DNA from: an uncultured Ignavibacteriales bacterium
GTDB lineage: Bacteria; Bacteroidota; Ignavibacteria; Ignavibacteriales; Ignavibacteriaceae
Reading direction: 5' to 3'
NCBI GenBank assembly: GCA_903929035.1
Contig: CAIYTF010000018.1
Coordinates: forward strand, 1-42,606
Length of the DNA stretch: 42,606 bases
Shown here: piece by piece, positions 5,010-25,283 of the stretch
Layout: each line of letters opens with the position of its first letter
How positions within the stretch are numbered: the first letter of the stretch is position 1
Program-made: the position numbers and the translations under genes
Notes under the pieces: model-generated
What the model was told of the DNA's origin: nothing
Databases searched by the model: none
Seen by the model: the letters and a program-made list of their open reading frames with translations, nothing else

Positions 5010-5019
5010 TTAACAATTA
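4985..5019. repeat. AT-rich repeat at the kinase 3' end
   Basis: Sequence of the type CAATTAACAATTTACAACTA followed by ACCATTAACAATT. It includes the TAA stop codon of the kinase, so the last residues (NNC) are read from the repeat. It is the same family as 3186-3270. Confidence 0.45.
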
Positions 5020-8000
5020 TTTTTTTGTATCGTAAAATAAAACGTACTCCCGACACCCTCTTTGCTTTCTACCCAAATTTTGCCGCCGTGCTTTTCGATA
5101 AATTCTTTGCATAGAATTAATCCCAAACCGGTGCTTGGTTCGTTTTCTGTTCCGGTTGTGCCTACTTTTTCGCCGACTATAAAAAGCTTATCAATCACAT
5201 CTTTGCGAATGCCGACACCGGTATCTGTTACCGATATTTCAATCATTCCGTCCTGTGTTTCATTTGCTCTGACTGTAACTTTGCCTCCTCTTTCCGTGAA
5301 TTTCACGGCATTTGTTAAAAGATTTCTAATAACGGTACTTATCATTTTCTCATCGGCAAATATTTTTTCAACTTCCGTGCTTTCCCCGATAGAATCGGGA
5401 CAAGCGCGGAAGATGGTAATTTCTTTTTGCCTCGCTCTTTCTTCTATTGATTTTATGCTCTGCAAAAAAACATCAGATAACCTTAGTTCTTTAGGAGTAA
5501 AATCGACCATATCTTTTTGAACTATAGCCCATTCCAATAGATTTTCCAACAACTGATAAACATTTACCACCGATTTACGCAATAATTTACTCATTTGAAC
5601 GAATTCCTCTATTGACAACATTTTGTCTTTAGCTGTCATCAGTTCGGTCAATCCCAATAATCCGGTGAAAGGACTTCTCAAGTCGTGAGCAATAATTGAA
5701 AAAAACTTGTCTTTCTCGGAATTTGCCTTTTCCAGCTTGATGTTCGATTCAATGATTTCCTCTTCCGCCAATTTCAAAAGTGTGACGTTTTCGTGGGATA
5801 CAACAAGCGAAATATTCCCATCACTTACAAAGCGGGTGATTCTTCCAATGAACCACCTTTTTTCATTTGGAGAATGACACGGGTATTCGAGTTCAAAAAT
5901 ATCCCGTTCTCCCTTGAGCATAGAACGAATACCTGCCGCGAATGCACCCGATTCTATTGAATCAGAAAAGTAAAAAGATCCAGCATCGCACACTGCAAGA
6001 TAATTAGCCCCTTCACAAAGGTTATATGTACCATCCGAATTGGCACCGGCAAAATTACGCCACGCTCGATTTACCCCTATGATAATGCAGTTTTCATCAA
6101 GAATTGCTATATGTGCCGATAAGGCACCCAATACCGCGTTGATGAATCGTTCCGATCTTTGGAGAGCTTCTTCGGCCTGTTTACGTTCTGTGATGTCGCG
6201 GTAATTCATTATCACGCCGCCAATAACGGGATCATTCGCGAGATTTTTGGCTGAGAGTTCTACCGGCTTATAACTCCCGTCTTTACATTTATATCTGAAA
6301 ACCACTGTTGTTTCCGCATTGTCTTTTTCTATAATAGATGAGAATTCTATTTGCAAACGCTCAAGGTCATCCGGATGAATCGTGTCCCATCCGTTAAGGC
6401 CAACAATGTCCTGCTGGGGCCATCCGAACCATTTCTCGATATTTGGACTTCTATATTTCATAACCCCGTCAATGCCCATTATGACAATTACGTCCGAAAT
6501 ATTAGCTATCATCGAACTGTGTTTTGCTTCACTCTCTCGGATAGCGTCTTCCATTCGCTTGCGTTCGGTAATGTCGCGGTAATTCATTATCACGCCGCCA
6601 ATAAGAGGATCATTCACCAGATTCTTGGCTGTGAGTTCTATCGGCTTATAACTCCCGTCTTTACATTTATATTTGTAAACCACTGTTGTTGTCGCGTTAT
6701 CTTTTTCCAAGAGAGAATAGAATTCCTTTTGAATACGGTCAAGGTCATCCGGATGAACCGTTTCCCAGCCATTTGTTCCTACAAGGTCTCGCGGCTGCCA
6801 TCCAAACCATTTCTCGATATTCGGACTTTTATATTTCATAATGCCGTCAATGCCCATTATGGCAATTACATCCGAAATATTTGCTATCATTGAACTATGT
6901 TTTGCTTCACTCTCCCGGATAGCGTCTTCCATCAGCCTGTGCTCGGTAACATCGCGTTGGACAAATAATATACTTTCGCTGTTGCCGAAAGAATCATACA
7001 AAACACAGGAATTTGTTTCAATAAAGAACCTGCTGCCGTCTTTTTTGATCGCGAGATATTGCTCAAGTTCATTTCCGCGCTTACCGGCAATCAGTTTACG
7101 AATACTATCAGTAAACTTTTCGTGATAGGGGGGATCAATAAATTCTAATGCATTTTTACCAAACATTTCATCTTTCTGCTTGATTGAATACCCGTACATT
7201 TCTATTAATTTATCTGACATAAGCTGGAGCTTCCCTTCAAATGAAATTATTCCTACTCCGTCAGGCGATGCGGATATAATGGCTTGAAGTCTTTGGTTAC
7301 TCTGTCGTAATTCTTCTTCTTTCTGTTTGCGTTCTGTAATATCTTCTTTAACAGCTACAAAATGAGTGATATTTCTTTCTGAATCGAGTATCGTAGAGAT
7401 GTTAGCCGATTCCCAATATAAGTCGCCGTTTTTCTTTTTGTTTTGAAATTCTCCTACCCATTCTTTGCCGGACAAAAGGCGGGACCAAAGTTCTTGATAA
7501 ATTTCAGGTGTGGTATTTCCGGATTTTAATATTCTCGGATTATTGCCAAAAGCTTCTTCCCTTGTATAGCCGGTAAGGGAGCAAAATCTTGGATTTACAT
7601 ATTCGATATTTCCATAGTGGTTTGTTATTACAATAGAAACGGGAGCTTGTTCAACCGCCTTGTGAAGTTTGCTGATTTCTTCCTGTGCTTTTATGCGCTC
7701 GGTTATGTCTCGTGCCGAAGCATAAAGATACTTCCTGTTTTCAATAGTAACACCTGTCGCGTTAATCTCGACATATCTGTAGCCCTCTCCTCTATCCGTT
7801 CTTAATTTCGTCTCAAACACCCCGCTGTGATTGATTAATTCGTTTATCTTAACCAACAAATCTTCGTTAGACCATTCAGCATACAATTCCGCGGCATTCA
7901 TTCGCAGTAGCTCTTCGCGGGTATATCCCGATAGTCTGCAAAATGAATCATTTGCTTCTACGACATTCCCGTTCTCGTCAAGGATGTGAATGCCGTCACT

Positions 8001-8603
8001 TGCCATTTGGAGTATTGTTTTGTCGCGTAAGGCTAACGCGTCAAGAGCATCTTGTGTTTTCTTTCGTTCGGTGATATCAATCGCGTTTACGTGGCATTGC
8101 TCCATATTTTCGTCACGTATGCCCGTAAGCTGCACATACTTCGGAATGTCTTCATTCGCCGATAGGCAGACTTCGCGGACTTCATTGGCTTTGCCGGAAA
8201 AAACTTCCTTGAGAAAAGAATTGAAAACCTGTCTCGTCTGCACAGTTACAAAAAAGCCAAACCAGCTGTTTATTATAAGCAAGCGTTCTTTGCCAAGCAT
8301 CTGAGCCCCGCGGTGGTTTAACCCGAGTATATTGCCTTCTTTGGAAAGAGTGAAATAACCGGATGGGGCAAAATCGTATAGATCGGTATATTTTTGTGTG
8401 GCAGCCTCGGCTTTTTCGGCGGCGATTTCTGCTCTCTCTTTTGCCAGCAGCAACTCTTCATTCTGCAGTTCCAACTCGATCTGGTGTACTTCCAGTTCGT
8501 GAATAAGTTTCAGCTTGTCAATCTCGGAAAGGTCAAATCTTGATTTTTTATTTTTCAGCGATTCTTCTGCTTTTTGTCGAATCGATAAGTTGTCTTGTTC
8601 CAT
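5010..8603 (-). CDS. Soluble multi-PAS sensor histidine kinase (seven PAS domains)
   Basis: The 1197-residue protein from this start has a helical N-terminus with the usual HELEVHQIELELQNEEL segment, then seven PAS/PAC units (about 71-180, 186-307, 309-426, 434-555, 564-681, 690-807 and 814-940), most closing with a D-I-T-E-R linker. A HisKA domain follows with phospho-acceptor His973 (IIAHDLRSPF), then a HATPase domain with N-box NLLTNAVKFT (1094-1103), G1 DTGVGI (1127-1132) and G2 STGLGL. There is no membrane segment and no receiver, so it is probably a cytoplasmic orphan sensor; no response regulator is adjacent. PAS5 and PAS6 are a tandem duplication with a 126-residue period. The frame stays open to an ATG at 8831 (1273 aa). 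I prefer the ATG at 8603 because the preceding 76 residues are unlike the family and the predicted transcription start is near 8832. Confidence 0.9.
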   Translation of the reverse strand: MEQDNLSIRQKAEESLKNKKSRFDLSEIDKLKLIHELEVHQIELELQNEELLLAKERAEIAAEKAEAATQKYTDLYDFAPSGYFTLSKEGNILGLNHRGAQMLGKERLLIINSWFGFFVTVQTRQVFNSFLKEVFSGKANEVREVCLSANEDIPKYVQLTGIRDENMEQCHVNAIDITERKKTQDALDALALRDKTILQMASDGIHILDENGNVVEANDSFCRLSGYTREELLRMNAAELYAEWSNEDLLVKINELINHSGVFETKLRTDRGEGYRYVEINATGVTIENRKYLYASARDITERIKAQEEISKLHKAVEQAPVSIVITNHYGNIEYVNPRFCSLTGYTREEAFGNNPRILKSGNTTPEIYQELWSRLLSGKEWVGEFQNKKKNGDLYWESANISTILDSERNITHFVAVKEDITERKQKEEELRQSNQRLQAIISASPDGVGIISFEGKLQLMSDKLIEMYGYSIKQKDEMFGKNALEFIDPPYHEKFTDSIRKLIAGKRGNELEQYLAIKKDGSRFFIETNSCVLYDSFGNSESILFVQRDVTEHRLMEDAIRESEAKHSSMIANISDVIAIMGIDGIMKYKSPNIEKWFGWQPRDLVGTNGWETVHPDDLDRIQKEFYSLLEKDNATTTVVYKYKCKDGSYKPIELTAKNLVNDPLIGGVIMNYRDITERKRMEDAIRESEAKHSSMIANISDVIVIMGIDGVMKYRSPNIEKWFGWPQQDIVGLNGWDTIHPDDLERLQIEFSSIIEKDNAETTVVFRYKCKDGSYKPVELSAKNLANDPVIGGVIMNYRDITERKQAEEALQRSERFINAVLGALSAHIAILDENCIIIGVNRAWRNFAGANSDGTYNLCEGANYLAVCDAGSFYFSDSIESGAFAAGIRSMLKGERDIFELEYPCHSPNEKRWFIGRITRFVSDGNISLVVSHENVTLLKLAEEEIIESNIKLEKANSEKDKFFSIIAHDLRSPFTGLLGLTELMTAKDKMLSIEEFVQMSKLLRKSVVNVYQLLENLLEWAIVQKDMVDFTPKELRLSDVFLQSIKSIEERARQKEITIFRACPDSIGESTEVEKIFADEKMISTVIRNLLTNAVKFTERGGKVTVRANETQDGMIEISVTDTGVGIRKDVIDKLFIVGEKVGTTGTENEPSTGLGLILCKEFIEKHGGKIWVESKEGVGSTFYFTIQKNNC
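6177..6932 (-). repeat. Tandem intragenic PAS duplication (2 x 378 bp)
   Basis: Two consecutive 378-bp units, 6555-6932 and 6177-6554, encode near-identical PAS domains; each protein unit begins (R)MEDAIRESEAKHSS or its end-equivalent and ends RDITERK. Nucleotide identity is high as well: for example GTCGCGGTAATTCATTATCA occurs in both at about 6195 and 6573. This indicates a recent unequal duplication or ongoing gene conversion. Confidence 0.8.
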
Positions 8604-8838
8604 AATAATTTGGTAGTCTCTAAATTGATGTTTATAACGAGCTAATAATAAAATATAAGCTATTTCTTTATCTTTACCAAGCACTATCGCGGTCTTCGCG
8701 TGAGAAAGATTCAGGTGCTGCTTTTTTTTGTAATTATACCTTTTTTTAGCTCTATTACGTTTTGAGTGGGTGATTATTCTTTCATAAAGAACCTTAATGT
8801 CAAATTTCACAGTGTACAAAATGTAATTCATCTCAATG
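8604..8838 (-). promoter_or_regulatory. Probable long 5' leader of the PAS kinase
   Basis: If transcription starts about 7 bp past the -7 box (near 8832) and translation at 8603, the leader is about 230 nt. I see no known riboswitch in it. The alternative is a nearly leaderless mRNA starting at the upstream ATG (8829-8831). Confidence 0.3.
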
Positions 8839-20802: not shown

Positions 20803-21456
20803 ATGATTCGTGAAGTGGTTTACCTTGATTATTTAGATGCACTCCTGCAAGCGGACAAGTTTCGATGTGAGTCTATAATCGGGAAACTGCAAAGTCAAGG
20901 TGTGGACATAAGAGAAATATATATATTCATTTTTCAAAAAGCACTTTATAAAGTTGGAAAACTATGGGAAATACGGGAGATCTCTGTTGCCGAGGAGCAT
21001 ATAGCAACTCAAATTACGGATTACCTCGTCACAAAAGTGTTTGCAGCTCTGCAAAACAAGGATAAAACAAACAAAAAAGCAATTATCAGTTGTATGGAAA
21101 AAGAGTTTCATTATATTGGTGCTAAAATGGTTTCCAATATATTTGAACTAAACGGATGGGTATCATATTTTCTTGGCAGCAACACTCCGGCTAAAGACTT
21201 AATTAAGTTTATTGATGAAAAACAACCTGATGTAATCGCGATTTCATTCAGTATTTATATGAATTACTCCCGCTTTATTAAAGCCTTAAATAATATAATT
21301 AACCATTTTCCTGCTCAACAAATAATATTAGGCGGGCAAGGACTTACAGGACAACTTTTAGAGGAATTCAAGATGCAATATCCAAGTGTAAAATATTTTA
21401 ATTCAATAAATGATTTAGATTTTTATTTGCAGCAACCTGAAGTTATTAATAATTAA
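20803..21456 (+). CDS. Stand-alone cobalamin-binding sensor-like protein (CarH-type)
   Basis: This 217-residue protein has a helical B12-binding-2 cap (about 5-85) followed by a Rossmann-like B12-binding domain (about 90-210). The cap contains Trp55, nine residues, then Glu65-His66, the W-x9-EH signature of adenosylcobalamin photoreceptors of the CarH type. The second domain has EFHYIGAKMV with His103, in place of the lower cobalt ligand of the DxHxxG or ExHxxG motif, and GGQG at 177-180. No DNA-binding MerR domain or enzyme domain is attached. It could sense B12 or light and act through a partner, or be a corrinoid carrier. The MCE operon starts 237 bp downstream; a link is possible but unproven. 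Confidence 0.85.
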   Translation: MIREVVYLDYLDALLQADKFRCESIIGKLQSQGVDIREIYIFIFQKALYKVGKLWEIREISVAEEHIATQITDYLVTKVFAALQNKDKTNKKAIISCMEKEFHYIGAKMVSNIFELNGWVSYFLGSNTPAKDLIKFIDEKQPDVIAISFSIYMNYSRFIKALNNIINHFPAQQIILGGQGLTGQLLEEFKMQYPSVKYFNSINDLDFYLQQPEVINN

Positions 21457-21693: not shown

Positions 21694-22500
21694 ATGGATA
21701 AAAAAATTCAGCCCGTTATTTCAGCAATAGGTTTTTTGGGTTTTCTTCGTCAAAGATATGTAGCTGCTATATATTTTGTCAGTTTCCTTATGGAGGTCGT
21801 AACCCAAAGTATTTCTTTATATCGCAACAGTAAAATAAGTAAAATTGTGATCTTCAGACAAATACTCTATACAGGTTATGAAGCACTCAGTTTAATATCA
21901 TTGATAGCAATCGCGATTGGTGCAATTATTATTATCGAGGGAAATTCTGTTTTCGAGGGATTTACACGAAGTAAAATTTTTTACACGATTTTTGTTTCTA
22001 TAGTTACACGCGAATTAAGCTGTTTACTAACTGCAATAATAATAATAGCCCGCTCCGGCACGGCAATTTCGACTGAATTAGGAAATATGGTAGTGAATCA
22101 CGAGATAGATGCACTTCTTTCTTTTGGGGTTTCTCCAATAGCCTATTTGGTTGTCCCGCGCATTCTTGGAGTGTTAATTTCAATAGTAACATTAAGCATA
22201 TATTTTAACGCGCTATCGACACTCAGCGGATGGGCAATAACGAATTTATTTTCTCCGGTAGAGTTCAAAGATTACTTCTATGGAATCTTTTCTGAATTGA
22301 ATTTCATTGACATAATTGCAAGCTCGCTAAAATCAACAATTTTCGGATTCCTAATCGCTATTATTTCAAGTTATGAAGGACTAAAAGTTGTTCGGGCAAG
22401 CACCGAAGTCCCCCAAAGAACAATTAAGGCGGTAGTTCGTTCTCTGACAGTAATCATTATTGCTGATGCCATAATCACAGTACTTTTATATTTCTCATAA
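21694..22500 (+). CDS. mlaE: MlaE-family ABC transporter permease
   Basis: This 268-residue inner-membrane protein matches the MlaE permease family, with about five to six membrane helices. The conserved coupling region RELSCLLTAIIIIARSGTAI (106-125) continues through STELGNMVVNHEIDALLSFGVSP, which corresponds to the REL-x2-LTA...ELG-x2-x4-IDAL pattern of E. coli MlaE. It should form the membrane channel for phospholipid movement together with an MCE protein. It opens a tightly packed four-gene operon with spacings of 8 bp, an 11-bp overlap and 2 bp. Unlike the ATPase-like subunit that follows, its conserved regions look intact. Confidence 0.93.
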   Translation: MDKKIQPVISAIGFLGFLRQRYVAAIYFVSFLMEVVTQSISLYRNSKISKIVIFRQILYTGYEALSLISLIAIAIGAIIIIEGNSVFEGFTRSKIFYTIFVSIVTRELSCLLTAIIIIARSGTAISTELGNMVVNHEIDALLSFGVSPIAYLVVPRILGVLISIVTLSIYFNALSTLSGWAITNLFSPVEFKDYFYGIFSELNFIDIIASSLKSTIFGFLIAIISSYEGLKVVRASTEVPQRTIKAVVRSLTVIIIADAIITVLLYFS

Positions 22501-22508
22501 TACGCTAA

Positions 22509-23255
22509 ATGATACAGGTAAATAATCTGACTCATAAAGTTGATTCAGACTTGATATTGAATAATTTCAGTTATAAATTTAATAATGGACAATTGACGGG
22601 TATTCTTGCTCCGGTTGAAGAAAATATGCCGGAATTATTAAGGATGATGTGCGGAATTACCGAACCACAACAAGGCAATATATATATAGAAAAAATAGAT
22701 ATATTTAACGATAGCCCTGAACGTATAAAAAACATTCGTAAAAAAATTTCATTTGTGTTCAATCGCGGCGGATTAATATCGAATCTTTCTATACTTGAAA
22801 ATCTATTGCTGCCATTGGATTTCCATTTCCCAGATGAAGATCATACAATGAAACTCGATAAAATTAAAGCTATTTTCGAACACTTCGGGTTAAATATTAA
22901 TTTGCTTTCAGAGAGACCTGCTACACTGCATCCACAATTCAAAAAGTTAATGCTTATAATCAGGGCTTTTCTTCCAAACCCCGCGATCATTCTATACGAT
23001 AATCCATTGGTTGATTTGGAGCTTAGCTTTAAGAAAAAGATAATCGGGTATCTTTACAAATTGCAAAGTAATGGGGTCACGCAAATTTTTGTTTCAACAT
23101 CGGATGTTTTATTGGAACTATCCGATGTTAATTTAGTATTTAAATCCGGATGTTTAATTGAATCCGGCAAATGGGAAGACCTCATTATGAGCAATTCAAT
23201 TATAACAAAAAACATTATCAGAGAGTATTTGGAAGTCGGCATTAATGAAACTTAA
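22509..23255 (+). CDS. MlaF-like ABC protein with all ATPase motifs lost (pseudo-ATPase)
   Basis: This 248-residue protein aligns along its length with MlaF-type ATPases: the Walker A region, the GGLISNLSILENLLLPL segment after the Q-loop, and the surrounding fold are recognisable. Yet the catalytic motifs are gone. Walker A G-x4-GKT is replaced by APVEENMPE (34-42, Met40 at the lysine position), the Q-loop glutamine by Asn85, the LSGGM signature by LHPQF (140-144), the Walker B DE by Asp164-Asn165, and the switch histidine by Thr197. The frame is open, hydrophobic core positions are kept, and the gene overlaps the MCE gene by 11 bp, so it is a maintained protein and not a decaying gene. It may be structural, or may pair with another ATPase encoded elsewhere. 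Confidence 0.85.
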   Translation: MIQVNNLTHKVDSDLILNNFSYKFNNGQLTGILAPVEENMPELLRMMCGITEPQQGNIYIEKIDIFNDSPERIKNIRKKISFVFNRGGLISNLSILENLLLPLDFHFPDEDHTMKLDKIKAIFEHFGLNINLLSERPATLHPQFKKLMLIIRAFLPNPAIILYDNPLVDLELSFKKKIIGYLYKLQSNGVTQIFVSTSDVLLELSDVNLVFKSGCLIESGKWEDLIMSNSIITKNIIREYLEVGINET

Positions 23256-24300
23256 ATTTAAATACACTGAACAATTCGTCAGTGTTTTCCTGTTAATTTC
23301 GTTGTTCATCATTGTAACAACAATTGTAATGATATTTTTGAATAAACGCGTATTTGAGAAAAAAATAAAATTTACCGGCAGATTAGCTGATGCAACCGGT
23401 CTTTCCCTATCTACTCCAATTTATTTCAAAGGATTTAAAATCGGAACGGTGAAAGACTTTCACCTTACCCCTGATAATTACATTGAAGCAGACCTTGAGA
23501 TTTACAAAGAATATCGGGATCGCGTTGTAAATAACTCCGCGTTATGGAAAGGATTAAATCCGGTCACTAATACAAGTTCACTTGAACTGCTGCAAGGCAT
23601 TGGGTCAGTAGGTGTACTTTCCGAGGGTTCTCTTCTTCCTGCTATTGATGTGCCGGATGGACGGAGGCTTTTAATGGAAGGCAGGGTAAAACAATCAGGA
23701 GATCCGCTCAGCACGCTGCTTGCAAACTTGCAATCATTCACGGAAAATATTACATCCGATAGCGTGGAAAACAAAGGACCTATTTTCCGTGCTGTAAATA
23801 ATTTTGCCGCTGCATCCCAAGACTTAAAAGAAATTGCAGGCAAGCTAAACTATATAACCGATGCTCTGTTAGAAGACAACAACCCGAGCAAAGGAACTCT
23901 CTTCCGAATACTGAACAACATCGCGGAATTAACTGCAGACTTGAAAACAACCAATAATATGGTAAAGAACACCCTCCTGAACACAAATTCGTTGATTGCA
24001 GCATATAAAAGCCCTGATTCACTTGGAATACGAATGATTGACCCAACCGGCGAAAGGATTTTCAATCCTATGCGTGAATCTCTGCTTGGCTTTAACCGAT
24101 TGCTGCCGGAACTTGAAAAATTCACTTTGTATATGAATAATAAGACCTCCGATATTACGGTATTATTGGATGATGTAAGAGTCATTTTACAGGAAGCACA
24201 AATTACATTTGAATCATTGAATAAATTGCTTGGCAACGAAAATGTGGTTCAGAAAAGAGCAGTTGGAATATCTCCGCAGCGTCCCAAACCAAAGGAATAA
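23245..24300 (+). CDS. mlaD: MCE-domain lipid-binding protein (MlaD family)
   Basis: This 351-residue protein has one N-terminal membrane anchor (about 11-33) and an MCE domain (about 40-120): FTGRLADATGLSLSTPIYFK, then GFKIGTVKDFHL, with the closing SSLELLQG. The rest is a long helical tail (about 160-330), as in MCE proteins that form hexamers and periplasmic barrels. It would bind and conduct lipids between the inner membrane and the outer membrane. Its start lies inside the end of the ATPase-like gene (11-bp overlap). The last 20 residues are basic and proline-rich. Confidence 0.92.
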   Translation: MKLKFKYTEQFVSVFLLISLFIIVTTIVMIFLNKRVFEKKIKFTGRLADATGLSLSTPIYFKGFKIGTVKDFHLTPDNYIEADLEIYKEYRDRVVNNSALWKGLNPVTNTSSLELLQGIGSVGVLSEGSLLPAIDVPDGRRLLMEGRVKQSGDPLSTLLANLQSFTENITSDSVENKGPIFRAVNNFAAASQDLKEIAGKLNYITDALLEDNNPSKGTLFRILNNIAELTADLKTTNNMVKNTLLNTNSLIAAYKSPDSLGIRMIDPTGERIFNPMRESLLGFNRLLPELEKFTLYMNNKTSDITVLLDDVRVILQEAQITFESLNKLLGNENVVQKRAVGISPQRPKPKE

Positions 24301-24302
24301 CG

Positions 24303-25283
24303 ATGAAATTGCGATTTCTTCTGTTAGCAGGTTTATCTTTATATTTCTCAGCGTGTTTTATGCTGCCGAGAAAAGAACGAATTGTTTCTATGCAGGAAAA
24401 GGACGCGAACATTTTTTTGAGAAAAGCTATAGAACTTACTCGGAAAAAGAACTACAAAATGGCATATTCTCTATTTCAGGATGCACTAAACAGATATACC
24501 GAAATAGATGACGAAGACGGGAAAACACGAACACTTTCAGGTCTTGTAAAATTATTCGCGATTCAAGGCGATAAACATCAAGCTGATTCGATTTGTTCCA
24601 TTTTATCCGCGCAGCCAAACCTGAATAAGACTCACTCAATATTTTACACTGAAGCAATCGCGTTCAATTCATATCAGTCAAAAGAACTTGATAAATTATT
24701 AGCACTATTTAATCAAATTGATGAGAACCAAAATAATTTGGAGATAAAATCCATTGTTGCATCTTATGTTATTTTATGCTCGTTTGGTGAAAATAGCACC
24801 AGTACAGCCGCGATGGTGAATTTTCTTGAAACGCGGTATGATGGACTGCTTAATTTATCAAAGAGCCATCTTTTACAAAATATTGAAACAACCGCTTTAG
24901 CAGCCTATGCCCTTGCAATTAATTTATATTCAAAAAATGAATTTGAACGGTCAGCTAAGTATATCGCGACAGCTCTCGATTATGACATTCAAACAGAAAA
25001 TTCGAGAGGAATAGCCGATGATTATTATTTGAGCGGCAAAATATCGTTTCAGACTAAAAAGTTTAATCAAGCCATAGAAGATTTCCACAATGCGAATGAT
25101 ATTTACTCCGCGATAGGAGAAAGTCAAGGAGCCCGGACGAGTTCTGTATTTGCATTGATTTCTGAATATAAAGTATCCGGAAACCCGGTGCTGCTCAAAT
25201 CCTTAAAAGAAATTCAATCTGCTGTAGAATCTAAAGAACTGATCGAGTTAATTAAGAAATATATTTCTGAAGAAACACGATAG
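24303..25283 (+). CDS. TPR-containing lipoprotein of the MCE operon
   Basis: I do not know a named family for this 326-residue protein. It has a lipoprotein signal ending in YFSAC (Cys18), so it should be anchored in a membrane. Residues 35-310 are helical with TPR-like pairs, for example KKNYKMAYSLFQDALNRY and FERSAKYIATALDYD. Its start is 2 bp after the MCE stop codon, so it belongs to the lipid-transport operon. By position it could serve as the auxiliary lipoprotein that docks the MCE barrel at the outer membrane, a job for which other systems use unrelated lipoproteins. It is convergent with glnS, 17 bp away. Confidence 0.8.
   Translation: MKLRFLLLAGLSLYFSACFMLPRKERIVSMQEKDANIFLRKAIELTRKKNYKMAYSLFQDALNRYTEIDDEDGKTRTLSGLVKLFAIQGDKHQADSICSILSAQPNLNKTHSIFYTEAIAFNSYQSKELDKLLALFNQIDENQNNLEIKSIVASYVILCSFGENSTSTAAMVNFLETRYDGLLNLSKSHLLQNIETTALAAYALAINLYSKNEFERSAKYIATALDYDIQTENSRGIADDYYLSGKISFQTKKFNQAIEDFHNANDIYSAIGESQGARTSSVFALISEYKVSGNPVLLKSLKEIQSAVESKELIELIKKYISEETR

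Follow-up and report, generated by a model that had tools for sequence, protein, structure and literature searches.

Can an ABC-type lipid transporter keep its nucleotide-binding subunit after that subunit has lost its ATPase motifs, and if so, what is the subunit kept for? The question is raised by an ORF at positions 22509-23255 (plus strand, 248 aa) of the window analyzed here, a stretch of 42,606 nucleotides from an uncultured Ignavibacteriales bacterium. The original prediction, made from this stretch alone, had described the ORF as a maintained MlaF homolog in which every ATPase motif is lost. The coordinates of the ORF were confirmed exactly, and the predicted fold of its product is closest to MlaF. 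We term this ABC NBD-fold protein without ATPase motifs pseudo-MlaF.

Organization of the operon

The genes surrounding pseudo-MlaF are all encoded on the plus strand. An MlaE-type permease of a distinct subfamily (21694-22500) ends 8 bp upstream; it matches the Pfam MlaE domain with 191.7 bits, against a cut-off of 22.5, and keeps the coupling-helix region, ARSGTAISTELGNM, which is strongly conserved. Downstream, pseudo-MlaF (end 23255) shares 11 bp with the reading frame of an MlaD-type MCE protein (start 23245; 23245-24300), an overlap that had already been read correctly, as had the open frame; the frames are intact in all orthologs. The MlaD-type protein matches the Pfam MlaD (MCE) domain with 35 bits (cut-off 25.1) and is predicted to consist of a TM helix at residues 8-33, a single beta MCE domain and a C-terminal helical part of about 175 residues, the last modeled with low pLDDT and in the monomer only. 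It is followed by a gene for a TPR lipoprotein (24303-25283), whose lipobox Cys18 is invariant in 16 orthologs. Directly upstream of MlaE is a gene for a B12-binding protein (20803-21456) with CarH-like C-terminal domains and no HTH match. A B12-binding gene lies beside the operon in several genera of family f1 (L070-L072 and L075-L080) and was not seen adjoining it in families other than f1.

MlaB and MlaC genes are absent from the operon, the flanking ORFs being those of the B12-binding protein and the TPR lipoprotein, and no second NBD gene with complementary intact motifs is present within it. The operon had been called an otherwise normal MCE operon. This description does not hold: the lack of MlaB and MlaC, the long helical MlaD and the TPR lipoprotein mark it as a distinct MCE subfamily composed of MlaE, pseudo-MlaF, long helical MlaD and TPR lipoprotein. 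Elsewhere in the window, the minus strand encodes a histidine kinase of 1273 aa (5010-8831) with several PAS domains, identified as five stretches by Pfam.

Loss of ATPase motifs in pseudo-MlaF

Pseudo-MlaF matches the Pfam ABC_tran family (1.6e-10) and the NCBIfam model for MlaF (6.8e-17; 61.6 bits, under the equivalog cut-off of 441), and its alignment with MlaF and other NBDs spans almost the full length. The former Walker A motif, APVEENMPE (residues 34-42; 22608-22634), aligns without gaps to GPSGTGKTT of A. baumannii MlaF, with Met40 at the position of the lysine, and does not match the pattern GxxGxGK[ST]. Asn85 (22761-22763) is found at the position of the Q-loop Gln, and LHPQF (residues 140-144; 22926-22940) replaces the canonical LSGGM, leaving no LSGGQ/M signature. 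Walker B Asp164 is followed by Asn165 in place of the catalytic Glu (22998-23003), and Thr197 (23097-23099) occupies the position of the switch His, with VSTSD corresponding to the canonical VTHD. The loss of the switch His rests on the HMMER alignment and on there being no His anywhere in the segment; the canonical rows of this column are one residue off in the MAFFT alignment. All of these substitutions agree with the original prediction. Its statement that every motif is lost is accurate for Walker A, the Q-loop Gln, the signature, the Glu and the His, but not for Walker B, of which the hydrophobic strand and Asp164 (IILYD) are still present.

Three other features of the protein, also on the plus strand, proved informative. 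An acidic pair, E37-E38 (22617-22622), is conserved within the former P-loop. Arg136 (22914-22916; sequence xRPA), located just ahead of the former signature, is shared by every subfamily member, whereas the canonical MlaF rows lack it. Residues 86-106, RGGLISNLSILENLLLPLDFH (22764-22826), which follow the Q-loop, form the best-conserved long stretch of pseudo-MlaF. From general knowledge of ABC proteins, we take this segment to be the cleft that receives the coupling helix of MlaE.

Orthologs and distribution of the subfamily

We searched 59 related genomes with the protein as query, and a profile search covered 80 genomes of the family. Pseudo-MlaF orthologs were identified at 16 loci in 15 of the 80 genomes, representing 8 genera, and are separated from canonical MlaF by a score gap (orthologs at or above about 202 bits, canonical MlaF at or below 138 bits). 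Walker A and the signature are missing at all 16 loci. The remaining motif residues show few exceptions: L075 retains the catalytic Glu and a His, and L073 and L074 retain the Gln. Since the same losses recur in 16 loci of 15 genomes set apart by this gap, chance is excluded, and a loss private to the genome of the window is ruled out. No close relative carries an intact ortholog, the motifs being lost throughout the supported clade. One locus, L069 (5863-6615; G095:C450), is a second pseudo-MlaF copy that follows a response-regulator/adenylate-cyclase-like gene and has no adjoining MlaE or MlaD; it might reflect a stray duplication or an error of binning.

When 395 genomes sampled from the whole phylum were searched with a profile built from the MlaE proteins of pseudo-MlaF loci, 14 were found to carry the subfamily, with four other families represented among them; a separate scan showed that a Spirochaetales MAG also carries a subfamily locus. 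The gene order is MlaE, F and long MlaD, followed by the lipoprotein at nearly all loci whose contigs extend far enough; at L072, L073 and L074 of family f1 no lipoprotein gene directly follows MlaD. The subfamily forms a single group (100/100) in an MlaE tree with canonical outgroups, whose long branches leave its inner order unsure. The MlaF-like frame of the Spirochaetales MAG (L038, 6751-7491) has no ATG, GTG or TTG ahead of Walker A, and its start is likely a CTG that follows a good Shine-Dalgarno-like sequence.

Selection on pseudo-MlaF

Synonymous sites are saturated between the window and its genus-mate G001, and dN/dS was taken from closer pairs in other genera. For the closest pair lacking Walker A, G010 and G035, dN/dS of pseudo-MlaF is 0.047 (NG86) or 0.065 (YN00), with values of 0.004 for MlaE and 0.02 for MlaD. 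Canonical MlaF gives 0.023-0.024 between the same two genomes, and in a subfamily pair whose Walker A is intact, F has a value of 0.03-0.04. Purifying selection on F is strong, yet weaker than on E and D. These values, together with the losses shared by the orthologs, uphold the earlier view that the protein is maintained and not decaying.

The constraint is unevenly distributed along the protein. Mean pairwise identity within the pseudo-MlaF clade is 0.34 over the whole protein and 0.25 over the set of former ATP-site residues, a set for which canonical MlaF shows 0.84. Residues 86-106 reach 0.63 in the clade, compared to 0.58 in canonical MlaF. The low conservation of the ATP-site set is borderline in a permutation test (P 0.055), an outcome to which the conserved acid at position 38 contributes. 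The region of MlaE that matches the coupling cleft is nearly invariant, and the cleft and coupling-helix sequences of the subfamily are unlike those of canonical pairs from the same genomes.

Stepwise and repeated loss of the P-loop

The LSGG signature and the switch His are altered across the whole subfamily, the His of L075 excepted, while the P-loop is found in several states. Family f21 and the Spirochaetales MAG have intact Walker A and Walker B Asp-Glu (Asp-Asp in L105); f24 and f2 have partly eroded P-loops (GPAGSGKG, GRPGSGKI, GGNGSGKF); and in f39 and the clade of the window the P-loop is gone. Since the signature and His have changed even where distant members still have Walker A and B in full, ATPase function was abandoned in steps without loss of the protein. 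A tree of MlaE and MlaD, in which F was not used, supports the clade of the window (97/98) with one Walker A loss at its base, and places the f39 loss elsewhere. Nearly all Walker A losses group together in a tree of F alone; a single loss for the subfamily, with all losses forced into one clade, was rejected by an AU test on the MlaE and MlaD tree (p 0.009). This rejection and the separate position of f39 show that Walker A was lost at least twice.

What replaced the P-loop is acidic. An acidic residue is present at position 38 in 14 of 15 clade sequences, at position 37 in 12 of 15, and at one or both in all 15, compared to an average acidic content of 14%; the rest of the former P-loop varies. 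The former P-loop of f39, an independent loss, is likewise acidic (DADGDSETE). At the Walker B Asp position, every sequence of the clade has Asp or Glu. Such an acidic loop should repel ATP phosphates, and may replace bound phosphates; a contact between the acidic pair and Arg136 across an NBD dimer is our guess.

Predicted structure and relation to known systems

An AF2 model of pseudo-MlaF, built with 23 sequences, shows an ABC NBD fold with helical subdomain (pLDDT 94.1, pTM 0.90). Foldseek places MlaF of E. coli and A. baumannii at the top of its matches (TM 0.86-0.87); the best PDB matches are 6xgz, 6z5u and 6xgy, with 6xbd also scoring high. The operon shares with the MlaFEDB systems of E. 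coli, A. baumannii and P. aeruginosa an MlaE and a single-MCE MlaD as well as the MlaF fold. It differs from them by the absence of MlaB and MlaC, the long MlaD, the TPR lipoprotein and an F that lacks Walker A, the signature, the catalytic Glu and the switch His. E. coli MlaF carrying K47A in Walker A or E170Q in Walker B does not complement (PMC7367683), so the losses in pseudo-MlaF should abolish canonical function.

Other MCE systems resemble the operon in different respects. The minimal MlaEFD of Veillonella parvula has the same three-gene core, with an elongated MlaD expected to span the periplasm (PMC10665443). The operon differs in its pseudo-ATPase F and in having, in place of an MlaD beta-barrel, a TPR lipoprotein gene after MlaD; MlaD of the FCB group is reported to have no barrel (PMC10665443). 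The long helical MlaD, as modeled, would fit the Veillonella-type envelope bridges. PqiABC and LetAB combine an inner-membrane protein, a spanning MCE protein and, in Pqi, an outer-membrane lipoprotein, with no ATPase encoded (PMC10897342); passive transport, PMF or an unidentified ATPase has been proposed to power PqiABC (PMC10897342). The present operon uses MlaE in place of PqiA and retains a relic of the NBD. Mycobacterial Mce systems likewise place an MCE needle on YrbE (MlaE) permeases, and their ATPase, MceG, is encoded elsewhere and shared by several Mce systems (PMC9882608). Those clusters have no local NBD, whereas a dead NBD is encoded and conserved here. Loss of catalytic motifs in a retained NBD is also known from TAP, CFTR and BmrCD (one degenerate site), but these are heterodimers or full transporters with one working site and, usually, ATP binding at the other (PMC7756269); a pseudo-MlaF homodimer would lack both a working site and a P-loop. 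We found no ATPase-dead or degenerate MlaF described in the open-access literature, to which the search was confined.

Possible role of pseudo-MlaF

We somewhat favor the view that pseudo-MlaF is a pseudo-ATPase bracing MlaE within an envelope-spanning lipid conduit for which its own ATP hydrolysis is not the power. Pseudo-MlaF would fold as an MlaF-like NBD and sit as a homodimer on the coupling helices of its dedicated MlaE, and would neither bind nor hydrolyze ATP as conventional NBDs do. The conduit across the envelope would be built from MlaE, the long MlaD as a hexamer and, in a putative position, the TPR lipoprotein. The pseudo-NBD would seal and brace MlaE on the cytoplasmic side, perhaps fixing the permease in one conformation or gating it, and the two acidic residues of the dead P-loop may substitute for, or repel, nucleotide phosphates. 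Lipid would run down its gradient, or be driven by something besides ATP hydrolysis in the complex, as has been proposed for PqiABC (PMC10897342). The transporter thus probably works without an ATP motor of its own. Against this explanation stand the faster evolution of F than of E and D, as would be expected of a less constrained part, the further MlaE and intact MlaF genes of carrier genomes described below, and the low confidence of the modeled C-terminal region of MlaD. A more specific version is a tentative one, namely that the subfamily converted an ATPase into a conserved non-nucleotide module, whose acidic loop mimics or replaces phosphate and fixes or gates the NBD dimer, resulting in a conduit or channel that still carries its NBDs but is independent of ATP. 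The original prediction had offered passive transport, an ATPase in trans and power of a new kind; passive transport with the NBD as scaffold is the best supported of the three.

Other MlaE and MlaF genes in carrier genomes

The genome of the window (G000) does contain intact MlaF genes, as a search for a second MlaF revealed. One lies beside MlaE on C50; the other (L110, C38:48566-49288) has no MlaE match nearby and has orthologs in G008, G010 and G027. The same genome carries an MlaE without a neighboring MlaF on C111 (L083, 6954-7724) and, on C170, an MCE protein gene without MlaE or MlaF neighbors (L084, 7464-8375). At least 2 further MlaE permeases are present in all 17 carrier genomes checked (2-3 in the 16 carriers besides G000), and intact MlaF genes were found in carriers where they were looked for. 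The unlinked MlaF of C38 and the lone MlaE of C111 suggest that MlaF is able to act in trans in the family.

The main rival explanation, which we judge rather improbable, is that an intact MlaF encoded elsewhere powers the MlaE of the operon part-time, with pseudo-MlaF as a competing regulatory or assembly placeholder. The intact genes on C50 and C38, the lone MlaE on C111, the unlinked MlaF similar to that of C38 in three other genomes, the additional permeases of the other carriers and the precedent of MceG (PMC9882608) are all consistent with such an arrangement. However, pseudo-MlaF adjoins MlaE in almost all carriers and keeps its MlaE-facing cleft, and the distinctive cleft and coupling-helix sequences noted above set it apart from the canonical pairs of the same genomes. 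G017, moreover, has pseudo-MlaF, and no ortholog of the unlinked C38 MlaF was found in it. In an ABC dimer, one partner contributes its Walker A to a composite ATP site and the other partner its signature. Because each site draws on both partners, a heterodimer of pseudo-MlaF and intact MlaF would leave both sites broken, and a canonical ATPase of this composition is ruled out.

Alternatives that give pseudo-MlaF an activity of its own

The dead subunit might instead be a sensor or ligand-binding gate that conveys a cytoplasmic signal to MlaE, a role for which the newly conserved acidic pair at 37/38, the invariant Arg136 and the B12-binding gene upstream in part of family f1 could be cited. 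We consider this unlikely: there is no known ligand, extra domain or STAS (MlaB) partner in the operon, and the B12 gene is confined to the f1 loci among those seen. Less credible still is the binding of ATP without canonical motifs, driving or gating transport in a new way. The acid retained throughout the clade at the Walker B Asp position would be compatible with it; an acidic P-loop without Lys, the missing signature and the wide drift of the ATP site point the other way. A decaying gene or an assembly error has hardly any standing, for although F evolves fastest of the three transporter subunits, the same state recurs in many independent assemblies, including the single-contig genome G008, which excludes assembly error, and dN/dS of about 0.05, the conserved cleft and intact frames throughout rule out a pseudogene.

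Implications for MCE transport

Neither the direction of MCE lipid transport nor its source of energy is settled. The graded dismantling of F across relatives of this subfamily separates the structural role of the NBD from the role of ATP, and the system makes it possible to ask directly if lipid can be moved by an MCE permease when no ATP is hydrolyzed. It would also be an uncommon case of an ABC transporter whose own NBD gene encodes no functional ATP site and yet is kept under selection.
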